DNA of 40,428 bases. Origin: an uncultured Bacteroidota bacterium (lineage in GTDB: Bacteria > Bacteroidota > Bacteroidia > Chitinophagales > Chitinophagaceae). Under the pieces are notes generated by a model, which saw nothing but the letters and a program-made list of their open reading frames with translations, was not told the DNA's origin and did not search any database. The DNA lies in assembly GCA_903903635.1 (NCBI GenBank), contig CAIUZK010000217.1, positions 1 through 40,428 of the forward strand, read 5' to 3'. Made by a program: the position numbers and the translations under genes. Of the stretch, positions 25,439 to 30,913 are shown in pieces; position 1 is the first letter of the stretch; the number at the start of each line of letters is the position of its first letter.

Positions 25439-25495
25439 ATAATATTCAAATAAAAACGGCTCCAGAATCTGGAGCCGTTTTTATTTGAATATTAT
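25439..25495. terminator. 57-bp perfect palindrome, terminator of clpC
   Basis: Perfect 28-bp arms (25439-25466 and 25468-25495) around a single central A. The GC-rich core ACGGCTCCAGA/TCTGGAGCCGT is flanked by AAAAA and TTTTT and then AT-rich arms that also pair. It lies 6 bp past the clpC stop on the minus strand and is symmetrical, so it would terminate from either side. Confidence 0.88.
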
Positions 25496-25501
25496 TGGTA
25501 A

Positions 25502-28045
25502 TTAGCTAACGCTGGGTTCTTCAGTTATCGTAGTCGGATGGTCTATCTTAAAGACTATTTTACCATCTGCTTCTGTATAATCTGCAGTAACTGTATCGCC
25601 TGCTTTAATACGATGGTTGAGAATTTCCTCTGCCAGCGGATCTTCAAGGTATTTCTGTATGGCACGATGCAATGGCCTTGCGCCAAATTGCTGGTCATAT
25701 CCTTTCTCAGCAATGTGTTTCTTGGCCGATTCCGAAAGTGTCATTACAAAACCAAGGTTGTTGAGGCGCTTCATCACATCTTTCATAATGATGTCGATGA
25801 TCATGGCAATATGCTTTTCCTCAAGCGAGTTGAAGATAACCACATCATCTATGCGGTTAAGGAACTCAGGCGAGAAGGTTCGCTTAAGCGCTTTCTCTAT
25901 TACGCCACGGTTTGAATCTTCCTGGCTCACTGCCTTTGCGGTTGTAGTAAAACCTACGCCTGCTCCAAAGTCCTTTAACTGGCGTGCTCCGATGTTAGAG
26001 GTCATAATGATCAGCGTATTCTTGAAGTCTACCTTACGACCCAATCCATCAGTAAGCTGTCCGTCATCAAGTACCTGCAACAGGATGTTGAATATATCCG
26101 GATGTGCCTTTTCAATTTCATCAAGCAGAACTACCGAATATGGTTTACGCCTTACTTTTTCAGTAAGTTGTCCACCTTCTTCATAACCCACATATCCCGG
26201 AGGGGCGCCAATAAGCCGGCTCAGTGAGAATTTTTCCATGTACTCACTCATATCCATACGGATAAGCGCATCATCACTGTCAAACATATAGCGGGCAAGT
26301 GCGCGGGCAAGTTCGGTTTTACCTACACCGGTTGGTCCCAGGAATATAAATGAACCAATTGGCTTGCGGGGGTCTTTAAGTCCCACACGGTTTCTCTGTA
26401 TGGCTTTTACTATTTTTTCAATAGCCTCATCCTGTCCTACCACATTGGCGCGAAGGTCATCGTCCATACGGCGCAATTTTGCGCTTTCTGCTTCCACCAT
26501 GCGCATTACAGGTATGCCGGTCATCATGCTTACCACTTCCGCTATCGACTCTTCATTTATCGGGTAGCGCTTATGCTTGGCTTCTTCTTCCCATTCTGCT
26601 TTTGCCTTGTCCAGTTCTTCACCCAGGCGTTTCTCACGGTCGCGCAACGCGGCAGCCTCTTCAAAACGCTGGCTTTTAACCACCTTGTTTTTTTCCTGCT
26701 TTATTTCTTCTATTTGCTTTTCAAGGTCGAGGATGGCTTGCGGCACATTAATATTTTTAAGGTGCACACGGGCTCCGGCTTCGTCCATTACATCTATAGC
26801 CTTGTCTGGCAGCAACCTGTCGGTCATGTATCGGTCGCTGAGTTTCACACAGGCGTCAATAGCCTCTGCATCATAAGCCACATTATGAAACTCTTCGTAT
26901 TTCGAACGGATATTGTTGAGTATCGTTATGGTTTCTTCAATACTTGGTGGCTCTATCAATACCTTCTGGAATCTGCGGTCCAATGCCCCGTCTTTTTCTA
27001 TATACTGGCGGTACTCATCGAGCGTAGATGCGCCAATGCATTGCAGGTCGCCACGGGCAAGTGCTGGTTTGAATATATTGGAAGCATCGAGTGAACCTGA
27101 AGCCCCACCGGCGCCGACAATAGTATGAATCTCATCAATGAACAGGATAACATCGCGGTTTTTCTCCAGTTCATTCATTATGGCTTTCATACGCTCTTCA
27201 AACTGGCCACGGTATTTTGTGCCGGCCACCAGGGCAGCCAGGTCTAAACTGATAACCCTTTTGTCGAAAAGCACACGGGAAACCTTACGCTGAACAATGC
27301 GGAGGGCAAGGCCTTCTACGATAGCGGTTTTACCCACACCCGGCTCACCTATCAGTATCGGATTGTTCTTTTTACGTCTTGAAAGTATCTGGGATACACG
27401 CTCTATTTCTTCGTCACGGCCCACTATCGGGTCAAGGCTGCCTAGTTCGGCAAACCGGGTAATGTCGCGGCCAAAATTGTCGAGTACGGGTGTTTTTGAT
27501 TTTGTGGCTCCTGCTGCCGGCTTACGGGGCTGCTGAAACTGACGCCTTTCGTCATCTTCCTCAAATTCTTCCGATCCCGGATCGTTATAATCAGCCGCAG
27601 GGCCGCCTCCCTGAAGTATACTCAGTTCGTTTTTAAACCGTTCATAATCAATTTCGTAATGATTAAGGATCTGGGTAGCCACATTCTCTTTATTTTTAAG
27701 AATAGAGAGCATCAGATGTTCGGTTTCGACAGTAGGGCTTTTTAAGGCTTTGGCTTCCAGAACGGTTATACGTATCACTTTTTCAGCTTGCTTGGTAAGC
27801 GGCAGGCTGTTGATATTGGCAAGAGGCTTGTTGTTTTTATCCTTTATAGCCACTTCCAGCTCTTTCCGAAGCTGGAAAAGGTCGACCTGCATGGTTTGAA
27901 GTACCTTCAATGCCATACCATCGCCCTCACGAATGAGGCCCAGCAATAAATGCTCTGTGCCAATAAAATCATTGCCCAGCCTCAACGCTTCCTCACGGCT
28001 GTAGGAGATGATTTCTTTTACTTTAGGCGAGAAATTAGAATCCAT
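25502..28045 (-). CDS. clpC: ATP-dependent Clp protease ATP-binding subunit ClpC
   Basis: 847 residues from [21 protein letters not shown] (ATG at 28045; the frame extends 11 residues upstream without support). There are two N-terminal Clp repeats (~1-145). AAA+ module 1 has Walker A GEPGVGKT (233-240) and Walker B VILFIDE (~299-305). A UVR motif in the middle region ([18 protein letters not shown], ~457-474) marks ClpC rather than ClpA. Module 2 has GPTGVGKT (570-577) and LLDE. The GVGF loop (~696-699) fits ClpP docking. It unfolds substrates and feeds them to ClpP in the cytoplasm. ClpP is not in the window. It is divergent from the STAS gene, and no -7 box was found for it. Confidence 0.95.
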
Positions 28046-28127
28046 GAAATTCCTGTTTTTAAATAATAAAGTTAACATTTTTCATCGTATTAATCTATTG
28101 TCATTAATTATTGAACCATCATCCTTT

Positions 28128-28135
28128 TATCTTTG
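28128..28135 (+). promoter_or_regulatory. Putative -7 promoter element for the STAS gene
   Basis: TATCTTTG matches TAnnTTTG in the clpC/STAS divergent region and would give a leader of about 100 nt. That leader contains a small inverted repeat, GCCGG (28182-28186) with CCGGC (28204-28208). Confidence 0.4.
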
Positions 28136-28243
28136 CTTTATTCCTGCTTATAACTAATAACAGAGCAATTGAAAAGTATTGGCCGGATTTAGTATTTTTA
28201 AAACCGGCTCAAAAAAATTTAATATTGATAAACACTCCTGATT

Positions 28244-28618
28244 ATGGATTTCAAAATTGATACCAAAGATAGTTTTACCACCATTATGCCGCTGGAAACA
28301 GAAATAAGTGCTAAAATGACAGGCGAACTGGTACTGAAGATGGAGGAAATGAGGCAAAGCGGCAGTAAAAACTTTATAATCGATTTTCAGCAATGCCTTG
28401 AAATAGACGAAAATGTGCTGCCCGACCTAATAGCCATGCACGAAGACAGCTATGGCCGGGAGCAATCCCTGGTTTTTACAGGTATAAAAGAAAAAGTACT
28501 GGCAATACTTAAAAAAGATGAATCAGATTTGCTACTGAATATTGCACCTACCATAATAGAAGCGATTGATATAGTAAGTATGGAAATACTGGAAAGGGAA
28601 TTATTAGGGGAAGAATAA
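28244..28618 (+). CDS. STAS-domain protein (anti-sigma-factor-antagonist-like)
   Basis: 124 residues, a single STAS-type fold: N-terminal strands, then FIIDFQQCLEIDENVLPDLIAMHE (~46-69) and SLVFTGIKEKVLAIL (~78-92). In classical antagonists the central loop is D-S-S-G with a phosphorylated Ser; here it is IDENV, so the phospho-acceptor is missing and kinase-controlled switching is unlikely. It probably serves as a protein-interaction module in the cytoplasm. It is co-directional with rnz, from which it is separated only by the GxxExxY cassette that begins 2 bases after its stop. A STAS gene next to rnz is, from memory, a common arrangement in this phylum. Confidence 0.68.
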   Translation: MDFKIDTKDSFTTIMPLETEISAKMTGELVLKMEEMRQSGSKNFIIDFQQCLEIDENVLPDLIAMHEDSYGREQSLVFTGIKEKVLAILKKDESDLLLNIAPTIIEAIDIVSMEILERELLGEE

Positions 28619-28619
28619 C

Positions 28620-28644
28620 TGTCTGAATCAGAATTTGCAGAATT
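28620..28644 (+). repeat. Left terminal inverted repeat of the GxxExxY cassette
   Basis: 25 bp beginning TGTCTGAATCAGAATTT. It pairs with 29158-29182 with a single mismatch. Confidence 0.8.
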
Positions 28645-28694
28645 AAAAAATTATCTGAATTGAGTTAAAACTATTGTACAAATTTTGATGTTGT

Positions 28695-29081
28695 ATGATA
28701 AAAGATGATCTTACCTATAAAGTAATCGGGTGCGCCATGAAAGTTCATAGCATTCTGGGCAATGGCTTTCAGGAAGTAATTTATCAGAGATGTCTTGCTA
28801 TTGAAATGACCCGGGAAAGGCTGAATTTTGGAAGGGAAATTGAACAAACAATTTACTATGAAAGTGAAAACGTAGGAACCAGAAGGGATGATTTTATAGT
28901 AGAACAAAAGGTTGTAGTAGAACTGAAAGCAATAATAAATCTGGAAGACGTTCACCTGGCTCAGGCTAAGAATTATGTTGTTGCATATAAATTTCCTTTA
29001 GGTTTGCTAATAAATTTCGGTGCTACAAGTCTTCAACACAAATTGATATTTAATCCAAACTATAATGCATTAAAAAGATAA
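28695..29081 (+). CDS. GxxExxY protein (PD-(D/E)XK nuclease-like fold)
   Basis: 128 residues. The family-defining motif G-F-Q-E-V-I-Y is at 24-30 (GNGFQEVIYQ). A nuclease-like active-site pattern follows: Asp66 in RRDDF, then E-x-K in VELKA (Glu76, Lys78), typical of PD-(D/E)XK enzymes. Known family fact: such proteins are widespread, short and of unknown biological role. The N-terminal helices (TYKVIGCAMKVHSILG) and the C-terminal KLIFNPNYNALKR complete the usual length. It lies inside a pair of inverted repeats between two co-directional housekeeping-like genes, which points to a mobile or selfish cassette. There is no signal peptide. Confidence 0.85.
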   Translation: MIKDDLTYKVIGCAMKVHSILGNGFQEVIYQRCLAIEMTRERLNFGREIEQTIYYESENVGTRRDDFIVEQKVVVELKAIINLEDVHLAQAKNYVVAYKFPLGLLINFGATSLQHKLIFNPNYNALKR

Positions 29082-29157
29082 AAGTAATTTGCAAACAAAA
29101 ATCACGGAAGAGATAATAGTCTCCTTTTTTTAAACATCACAATCCTGAAAATTCAAA

Positions 29158-29182
29158 AATTCTGAAAATTCTGATTCAGACA
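29158..29182 (-). repeat. Right terminal inverted repeat of the GxxExxY cassette
   Basis: 25 bp ending TTCTGATTCAGACA on the plus strand, complementary to 28620-28644 with one mismatch. It ends 6 bp before the rnz ATG, so any native upstream sequence of rnz is displaced or comprised by the repeat. Confidence 0.8.
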
Positions 29183-29188
29183 ATCTAA

Positions 29189-30091
29189 ATGAAAGTAACA
29201 ATTTTAGGTAATAACTCAGCGCTTCCTGCTTTTGGCAGGCATCCTACGGCGCAGGCGGTTTCGGTATACGGCGATGTAATTTTAATTGATTGTGGTGAAG
29301 GCACCCAGATCCAGATGCAGCGTTATGGACTTAAGTGGCGCACAGTCCATCATATCCTCATCAGCCATTTGCACGGCGATCACTATTTCGGCTTGCCCGG
29401 ACTACTCAACAGTATGAGCCTGCTAGGCCGCACTGCCCCCCTGCACCTGCATGCACCCGCAGAGCTTAAACCAATAATAGATGCTATACTGGAAGTAGCC
29501 GATACAGTTTTATGCTACCCATTCTATTTTCACCCCCTGCCAGATGATAGCAGGGTAATAGCCGATACGCCAACATTCAGTATAACCTGTTTTCCGGTCG
29601 AGCACCGCATCAAATGCCATGGTTTCCTTATTGAGCGTAAAACCAAGGGTAGAAAGATAGTACCTGCAAAGTGCAATGAATATGAGATACCCGCCGCTTT
29701 TTACGATTACCTGAAACAGGGCGAGGATTATGAACGCAAAGATGGCTTTCTGGTAAAAAATGAATGGGTTACAGAAGAAGGACCAGCCATAAAGCGATAT
29801 GCCTACTGCGCCGACACCTTATTTACAGATAGTTTTTTGCACATAGTGAAGGGTGTAGATACCATTTACCATGAATGCACCTACCTGGAAGCTGATAAAG
29901 CTAAAGCAGTGGCACGTTACCATAGCACTGCCACCCAGGCGGCTGAAGTAGCTAAAATGGCCGGGGCAAAACAATTACTGCTGGGCCACTTCTCCTCAAA
30001 ATATAAGGAACTGGATGCCTTCAGGGAGGAAGCCAGTGCAATTTTCCCTAATTCGCTCGTGAGTATCGAGGGAACCGTGTATGAAGTTTAG
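29189..30091 (+). CDS. rnz: Ribonuclease Z
   Basis: 300 residues of the metallo-beta-lactamase fold. The zinc-binding motif SHLHGDH is at 59-65 (His60, His62, Asp64, His65). Further ligands include His in PVEHRIKCHGF (~136-146), Asp in YCADT (~206-210) and His in LLLGHFSSKY (~264-273). HEATYLE-like HECTYLE (~229-235) is also typical. It removes the 3' trailer of pre-tRNAs in the cytoplasm. Length and motifs fit bacterial RNase Z well. Its immediate upstream sequence is the right repeat of the GxxExxY cassette, and no Shine-Dalgarno-like sequence is evident there. Confidence 0.93.
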   Translation: MKVTILGNNSALPAFGRHPTAQAVSVYGDVILIDCGEGTQIQMQRYGLKWRTVHHILISHLHGDHYFGLPGLLNSMSLLGRTAPLHLHAPAELKPIIDAILEVADTVLCYPFYFHPLPDDSRVIADTPTFSITCFPVEHRIKCHGFLIERKTKGRKIVPAKCNEYEIPAAFYDYLKQGEDYERKDGFLVKNEWVTEEGPAIKRYAYCADTLFTDSFLHIVKGVDTIYHECTYLEADKAKAVARYHSTATQAAEVAKMAGAKQLLLGHFSSKYKELDAFREEASAIFPNSLVSIEGTVYEV

Positions 30092-30178
30092 AAACCGCCT
30101 GGCATAGTGATGGCTAGTTAAATACGGTTTGGTTATAATGCAAATTTCCGATAACCCCCGGATGCTTTGAAAAATTCT

Positions 30179-30186
30179 TAACTTTG
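30179..30186 (+). promoter_or_regulatory. Putative -7 promoter element for the flavin reductase gene
   Basis: TAACTTTG matches TAnnTTTG and ends 10 bp before the ATG at 30197; the transcript would be close to leaderless. No -33 TTTG at standard spacing. Confidence 0.42.
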
Positions 30187-30196
30187 GCCCAAAAGG

Positions 30197-30913
30197 ATGG
30201 TACAGCAATGGCAAACAGGCGTTGTAAAACGCGTAGAACAAGTAACGCACAATACTAAAAGGTATTGGGTGGAGCTGCCTGATACCCCTCATTTCAACTT
30301 CGTTCCCGGCCAGTTTGTTACACTCGACCTGCCAATTGATGAGCGGCGCAACAAACGCTGGAGAAGCTACAGCATTGCCAGTATGCCCGATGGCGGCAAT
30401 ATGATTGAATTACTCATCGTGCATGTAGAGGGGGGTAAAGCCTCTAAATATATCTTTGAAGAAATAAAAGAAGGCAGCCTGTTTACCTTACGCGGTCCGC
30501 AAGGGGTTTTTGTAGTTCCAAAAAATCTCGATAAGGAACTATTCCTGATTTGCACCGGTACCGGCATTGCTCCATTCAGGAGCATGGTAAAATACATCCA
30601 TCACAATAAAATACCTTTCCAAAAAATATACCTCATCTACGGAACCCGCACCCAGGCCGATTTGCTCTATGCCGATGAAATGAGGGAGTTGGAAAAAAAC
30701 ATGCCGGGGTTCAGTTATATTCCCACTTTATCAAGAGAGCAGTGGGAGGGCCATAAAGGCTATGTTCACCCCATTTATGAGTCATTGTGCAAAGGCTGCC
30801 CGCAAGCAACCTTCATGCTATGCGGATGGAGAAAAATGGTAGACGAGGCAAAGGAGAGGATTCTGGCTATGGGATATGACAAAAAAGATGTGGAAGTTGA
30901 ATTGTATGGTTAA
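30197..30913 (+). CDS. Ferredoxin-NADP reductase-like FAD/NAD(P)H oxidoreductase
   Basis: 238 residues. The N-terminal FAD-binding barrel contains the RSYS motif (~55-58, in RWRSYSIAS). The C-terminal NAD(P)-binding domain starts with CTGTGIAPFRSM (~118-129). MLCGWRKMVDEA (~208-219) and a C-terminal aromatic (VELYG) complete the ferredoxin-NADP reductase-like fold. It transfers electrons between NAD(P)H and a partner such as ferredoxin, flavodoxin or an oxygenase; the partner is unknown. No 2Fe-2S domain is fused. The stop is only 12 bp from the stop of the convergent GLPGLI gene and there is no hairpin between them, so the transcripts probably overlap at their 3' ends. Confidence 0.85.
   Translation: MVQQWQTGVVKRVEQVTHNTKRYWVELPDTPHFNFVPGQFVTLDLPIDERRNKRWRSYSIASMPDGGNMIELLIVHVEGGKASKYIFEEIKEGSLFTLRGPQGVFVVPKNLDKELFLICTGTGIAPFRSMVKYIHHNKIPFQKIYLIYGTRTQADLLYADEMRELEKNMPGFSYIPTLSREQWEGHKGYVHPIYESLCKGCPQATFMLCGWRKMVDEAKERILAMGYDKKDVEVELYG

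Follow-up and report, generated by a model that had tools for sequence, protein, structure and literature searches.

A GxxExxY nuclease-fold gene between copies of a dispersed repeat: a candidate REPtron-like unit in Bacteroidota

In REPtrons (RAYT/TnpA-REP, REP/REPIN, BIME) each REP type generally has a single full-length tnpA-REP gene, and REPs often lie on both sides of it (passages of PMC6006769). Genomes carry several REPtron types together with dispersed REPs and inverted doublets, and passages of PMC6006769 and PMC3116915 describe transposition of the unit itself as not seen. The repeats of REPtrons are GTAG-tagged short palindromes. In TIRYTs (terminal inverted repeat associated Y1 transposases) a single Y1 transposase gene lies between terminal inverted repeats, most of which follow the consensus GGGG[AT][CG]A[CG] (passages of PMC6006769). 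MITEs are short gene-less inverted pairs at unrelated sites, with ends as on gene-bearing units. The locus described here resembles a TIRYT in having one nuclease-type gene between terminal inverted repeats, but the gene is not a Y1 transposase.

The locus lies in the window, the whole stretch of 40,428 nucleotides that was analysed, from an uncultured bacterium of the Chitinophagaceae. The genome (G000) comprises 5.27 Mb in 275 contigs and has one GxxExxY gene only. The features of the locus are as follows.

28244..28618, + strand: STAS-like ORF (weak Pfam match), upstream neighbour and target-site context
28620..28662, + strand: left arm, starting with TGTCTGAATC, continuing in degenerate units of about 8 nt and ending in GAATT
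28695..29081, + strand: GxxExxY / PDDEXK_3 nuclease-fold gene, 128 aa (ORF, profile matches, invariant residues, confident model)
29140..29182, - strand: right arm, the left arm inverted (pairing with the left arm)
29189..30091, + strand: rnz, ribonuclease Z-like metallo-beta-lactamase gene, downstream neighbour and target-site context

The arms pair in inverted orientation at 81% of positions over 43 nt, and the outer 25 nt contain 24 matches and 1 mismatch. Five mononucleotide shuffles of the window's right 20.4 kb reached no more than 18-19 inverted matches out of 25 within 1 kb, which rules out a chance repeat. The cassette therefore carries the terminal inverted repeats expected of an insertion sequence or transposon. 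The 128-aa ORF is the single ORF of note between the arms, and no transposase ORF was found there. Pairing, shuffles and profile matches uphold the original prediction of a cassette with terminal inverted repeats around one 128-residue GxxExxY gene, and the predicted absence of a transposase also held. The tight fit that it gave between the STAS and rnz genes stands on the rnz side, where the right arm ends 6 bp before the start codon; on the STAS side the gap is 1 bp, not 2 bp. The STAS label itself is weak (Pfam E 0.044, below Pfam's cut-off). Elsewhere in the window, a perfect 25-bp inverted repeat with a short loop (25439-25495) lies directly beyond the end of a clpC-like gene and is probably the terminator of that gene.

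The window protein matched TIGR04256 (GxxExxY) with E 4.3e-36 and 123.8 bits (curated cut-off 35) and PDDEXK_3 (PF13366) with E 8.2e-35 and 120.1 bits (cut-off 22). PDDEXK_3 was its sole Pfam match at E up to 1, and an HUH-Y1 domain was absent. G24, E27, Y30, D66, E76 and K78 were invariant in an alignment of 96 sequences including the window's, in agreement with the GxxExxY motif and intact Asp66/Glu76/Lys78 noted originally. By score and motif the protein is a member of the GxxExxY TIGR04256 / PDDEXK_3 family. A sequence search of the PDB returned 0 matches. The AlphaFold2 model was confident (pLDDT 93, pTM 0.86), and its top Foldseek match was SSO0001 (4ic1; E 5.5e-5), which we take to be a Cas4 protein. 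The four chains of that entry were the only matches with E <0.001, at a large rmsd of 11-15 and a query-normalised TM-score of 0.52-0.59. Weaker matches were LHK-Exo, an R2 retrotransposon protein, AdnAB, ACE1 (Cas4 family), lambda exonuclease and MGME1. From these matches the modelled fold is that of a RecB/Cas4-like PD-(D/E)XK nuclease. The likeness to Cas4 and RecB-type nucleases consists in this closest solved fold and a weak PADLOC match to Cas4b (E 4.9e-5); the window protein differs in being only 128 aa long and in the TM-scores given above. Fold and intact residues together point to a putative nuclease activity. No function for GxxExxY proteins was found in the open-access literature searched, the passages that mention them give neither a function nor an association with arms, and no open-access paper was found for PDDEXK_3.

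GxxExxY matches were present in 29 of 35 genomes of the genus and in 95 of 147 genomes of the family. The genus set consisted of 62 loci including the window's, of which 5 were dropped for short flanks. Inverted arms from flank to flank exceeded the 99% shuffle level at 44 of the remaining 57 loci and were missed at 13. Three of the misses (L042, L095 and L111) have an ORF that runs into the right arm; when this was allowed, their arms matched at 30/36, 42/51 and 42/49 positions. A second, named set was taken as the best 80 of 551 matches and reduced to 77 by dropping 3 with short flanks. An arm score of at least 17 was reached by 54 of the 77 (23 were missed) and by 0 of 141 controls, which were equally long intervals displaced inside those loci. 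The best 80 of 551 come mainly from Bacteroidota, with some from Fibrobacterota, Cyanobacteria, Chloroflexi and others. Counts from the genus and named sets were not summed because the sets overlap (L145, L148 and L217 are the loci of G028, G116 and G015). In both sets cassettes were located through the gene, not by an unbiased scan of the contents of arm pairs.

Many arms start with (T)GTCTGAAYY and then run on in degenerate units of 8-9 nt. Other GxxExxY genes are flanked by arms of the CACAGAG and CACGAAT/CACTAAT classes (L246, L247, L266, L269, L271). The association of GxxExxY genes with arms may thus cover several types of intergenic repeat. The inverted ends of the Spirosoma oryzae cassette (L218) are unusually long and almost identical (alignment score 115), and this cassette is possibly a young copy. 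Two related cassettes lie on different contigs of the Pontibacter fetidus genome (L156 and L164); their arms are 83-91% alike and the gene stretch is 71% alike in DNA, and by this comparison the arms look more homogeneous than the genes. Phage records with the unit numbered 0, viral contigs gave 1 locus, and 8 plasmid records had a GxxExxY match, each at <60% identity. Phages or plasmids as the main vehicle are ruled out by these few, dissimilar records.

Copies of the arm were found throughout the window's genome. The arm pattern TGTCTGAATCWGAATTT occurred at 23 places with at most 1 mismatch, 2 of them in the cassette and 21 elsewhere; a reversed control pattern gave 2 matches at up to 2 mismatches. 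Most of the copies inspected are lone arms about 43 nt long. In 16 loci, 19 solo arms were inspected; no fewer than 9 belong to a larger compound repeat, and some copies were consequently amplified together with something else. The compound repeat has the form TTGCACACTGCGCA .. TATTGATAATCAA .. arm at L012, L016, L018 and L020-L023 (for example L018:1968-2110), with a variant form in L010 and L017. At L014:1234-1310 and at L025 (about 2091, minus strand) the arm is split by a second short palindrome of the type GTGCGCC..GGCGCAC, as if another repeat had entered it. Six repeat strings of the arms had no match in the open-access literature.

Gene-less copies in relatives also take the form of inverted pairs. 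In the complete genome G038, 9 regions jointly hold all 12 arm hits, and 8 of them contain an inverted pair of 127-142 bp. The eight units are on average 70% alike, and the 140 nt upstream of them 40% alike. The units of G038, though not the copies in the window's genome, are therefore MITE- or REPIN-like: they are short, have inverted ends and are scattered among unrelated flanks. The arm-pair units differ from MITEs in that no consistent target duplication was detected and no transposase partner is known. Neither of the two GxxExxY genes of G038 is flanked by the arm dispersed in that genome, which counts against a simple account there. Further gene-less pairs were found in hand-picked regions of G133, G111, G123 and G079. 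Altogether 20 regions were picked by hand, several for close inverted hits, and 16 had a pair; the 9 of G038 were unselected. Tight clusters of arms on the same strand, resembling tandem arrays, were seen at G097:C66:102313-102956 and G079:C1:467250-479842. It is mostly arms, single or in inverted pairs, that are dispersed.

Arm class was compared with protein type. Clade II proteins are 24-36% identical to the window protein, and their genes have xCAAAG-type flanks in 12 of 13 cases and TCTGAAYY in 1 of 13. Among the other 49 genes, with which the fragment genes L053, L112 and L114 were pooled by default despite flanks that look like clade II, 39 have TCTGAAYY and 8 have at least 2 xCAAAG-type motifs. 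Across 53 cassettes, protein similarity was correlated with arm similarity (Mantel r 0.35, p 0.0005; best of 2000 permutations 0.19). Arms of the window's type end in GAATT or GGATT, and this difference required 4 changes on the protein tree (30 of 36 rows labelled), against a shuffled mean of 8.5, with 3 of 2000 label shuffles as low; vertical descent at the same site helps this result. Dispersed arms followed the gene as well. The 3 genomes with the type F gene contain 9, 7 and 6 type F arms; of the 32 lacking it, 3 contain 5, 2 and 1 (Fisher p 0.003 for any copy). Type B arms had at least 2 copies in 7 of 9 genomes with the gene versus 2 of 26 without (p 0.0002). The family arm pattern was found in 43 of 95 genomes with TIGR04256 versus 8 of 52 without (p 0.0003), and 402 times in all 147 genomes, cassette arms included. 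In G145 and G133 the arms of one cassette match the type that is dispersed most often (9 of the 13 hits in G145 and 8 of the 15 in G133; the cassette itself supplies one in each).

There were exceptions. Dispersed arms occur without a full matching gene in G008 (5 type F arms), G033, G020, G010 and G001, and G009 and G025 have their own type-B gene without an exact type-B arm copy. No GxxExxY match was found in G080 (18 arm hits, genome 79% complete) or G039 (6 hits). G111 (L235, L236, L238-L242, L252) has 84 arm hits and a GxxExxY fragment only; repeats seem to outlive the gene there. Gene loss would explain arms without a matching gene, including those of G111, G080 and G039. By these sequence comparisons arm class follows protein clade, and the dispersed arms tend, with the exceptions given, to go with the gene type that they match. 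Joint inheritance or transfer of entire cassettes, and not recognition, could account for part of the match.

Ownership of the arms by a RAYT/TnpA-REP (HUH) enzyme or another known transposase was considered, since REPs show the same behaviour (passages of PMC6006769) and Y1_Tnp genes are present in 7 of 8 genomes searched, the window's included. A scan for TCTGAAYY/GAATT-type arms covered 30 Y1_Tnp loci (of 32 matches), each a stretch of 2-3.3 kb; 1 of the 30 contains such an arm, and 0 of 30 are flanked by a pair. The arm-rich G111 has no Y1_Tnp match at all. Y1/RAYT ownership is mostly refuted in the eight genomes tested, where Y1 loci are not flanked by TCTGAAYY arms, and a known transposase as owner is highly improbable.

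The STAS-rnz junction was followed across relatives. An rnz match was present in 34 of 35 genus genomes, and 30 loci were compared. The junction was occupied by the cassette in 6 of the 30 (G000, G027, G018, G015, G028 and G020); the G018 gene has an in-frame stop, and G020 was counted as occupied though its contig ends before STAS. In another 6 (G008, G024, G026, G022, G031 and G033) only 0-9 bp separate STAS from rnz; these junctions are empty or nearly empty, and the 9 bp of G024 may be a remnant. Three (G010, G014 and G017) keep gene-less arm-like sequence. Among the remaining loci STAS is more distant in 2, and in 13 it is absent from the stretch covered. In other genera the gene was at the junction in 0 of 28 loci; STAS lay upstream in 21, in 5 of them within 4 bp of rnz, 7 had no STAS in the stretch covered, and L060 has almost no upstream sequence. 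The rnz tree pairs occupied with empty sisters (G028/G022, G020/G033 and, less firmly, G015/G024). The tree of the same-site GxxExxY genes broadly agrees with the rnz tree, and the AU test of a single origin versus several insertions gave p 0.46. From the junction states, the absence in other genera and the trees, the arrival of the cassette at this junction falls inside the genus; afterwards it was passed on, lost or regained. A private recent insertion in the window is ruled out by the gene at the same place in five relatives.

The alternation of occupied and empty states between sister species at one fixed junction would also be produced by a homing-type drive, in which a relative's cassette is copied into the empty junction once the nuclease has cut it. 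Such a drive is very unlikely, as different gene types sit at many unrelated junctions, and it leaves the dispersed arms and inverted pairs unexplained.

Both parts of the cassette have been kept for a long time. Among 13 gene pairs, the 10 with measurable dS gave dN/dS 0.01-0.15 at dS 0.6-2.4 (dS at least 1.4 in 8), and these ratios show purifying selection on the protein. In 14 cassettes the arms pair at 71-93% of positions, against 28-37% under neutral decay, a plain Jukes-Cantor figure to be read with local alignment favouring the best stretch. The 14 cassettes make up seven pairs with dS 1.4-2.4, with some repeats because the window's cassette and L032 are each in two pairs, and L043 was left out since its upstream arm is cut off. 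Because dN/dS is low and the arm match lies far above the neutral expectation, both protein and arm pairing have been maintained. Genes at the same place, broadly agreeing trees and high dS with low dN/dS argue for long residence. Of 124 cassettes passing the arm score, 72 were anchored at the arm ends and searched for target duplications. None of 6-9 bp or of 4 bp was found among the 72, those of 2-3 bp were not above chance, and 5-bp duplications occurred in 2 of 72 versus 0.3 expected. Target duplications of old insertions could have been lost over time.

The original prediction had taken the cassette for a selfish mobile unit. Its expectations of repeats elsewhere in the host, of repeat copies without a gene and of relatives with an empty STAS-rnz gap all proved right, in the 21 further places, in the solo arms and gene-less pairs, and in the six empty or nearly empty loci. 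The multi-copy selfish unit was not borne out: the genome has a single gene-bearing copy, five relatives have the gene at the same place with broadly agreeing trees, and synonymous sites are far diverged at low dN/dS. The comparison of empty and occupied junctions was one between species. That the whole cassette is a tiny insertion element, moved as a unit by its own nuclease, is unlikely. It stays a rival because other phyla have genes of the same type and Pontibacter fetidus has two related cassettes; that six relatives have the STAS-rnz junction empty, one of them with 9 bp left, also agrees with it. The long vertical residence and the lack of a consistent target duplication speak against it, as does the genus tree, in which the genes of one genome fall in different clades except for L093/L094 and L089/L098, and L093 and L094 are just 76% alike in DNA. 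A selfish cassette hopping as a unit fits these data less well than a REPtron-like unit.

If the nuclease gene had a housekeeping role and the arms were its regulatory or RNA-processing hairpins, with the repeats spread by an unrelated agent, the purifying selection and the maintained pairing would be accounted for. Cassettes also sit tightly between genes: in 23 of 79 the ATG of an ORF of 60 aa or longer lies no more than 10 nt from the right end, compared with 9% of random positions. Many arms of the window's genome ride in the compound repeat. Set against this are the abundance of the arm pattern across the family, the tendency of its class to follow gene type, and the RNA predictions: the predicted RNA fold of the window cassette is not unusual (z -1.6), and no terminator-like site was found in 28500-29300. 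A known RNA family at the locus is ruled out by the absence of an Rfam match in 28000-30200. Taken together, such a regulatory role is improbable.

The evidence leans slightly towards the gene and its two arms being a REPtron-like unit in which a PD-(D/E)XK nuclease takes the place of the HUH transposase. The likeness to REPtrons lies in a gene flanked by copies of its own dispersed repeat, in one gene per type-specific repeat (here a tendency with exceptions), in the presence of several types in one genome, and in dispersed non-autonomous copies, both single and as inverted pairs. The cassette is not a member of that group, as its enzyme is PD-(D/E)XK and not HUH-Y1, and its arms are degenerate runs of 8-9-nt period in the TGTCTGAAYY, xCAAAG or CACGAAT classes, unlike the tagged REP palindromes. 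In the proposed mechanism, the RecB/Cas4-like nuclease would recognise its own arm class. The arms, single or as hairpin-forming inverted pairs, would be non-autonomous elements that spread through intergenic DNA, and the gene-bearing copy would mostly stay put, inherited and kept by selection. The nuclease itself would move the arms. It would bind and cut them, presumably as a single-stranded DNA hairpin or a cruciform, and the cut hairpin might be joined or copied at a new site by host repair or replication. Joining or copying of this kind would leave no consistent target duplication. In its general form the proposal is more tentative and falls somewhat short of an even chance: lone PD-(D/E)XK GxxExxY nucleases, without a transposase, would disperse hairpin repeats that form a large interspersed class with a degenerate short period (types TGTCTGAAYY..GATT, CGCAAAG, CACAAAG/CACAGAG, CACGAAT) in Bacteroidota and other phyla.

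The link to the arms gives the common GxxExxY family its first concrete candidate substrate and suggests that a class of bacterial repeats owes its spread or upkeep to this family. GxxExxY proteins that each have their own repeat class would offer an origin for widespread intergenic repeats. If true, a non-HUH enzyme would be added to the long-lived, near-domesticated mobile systems of the RAYT/REPIN kind.
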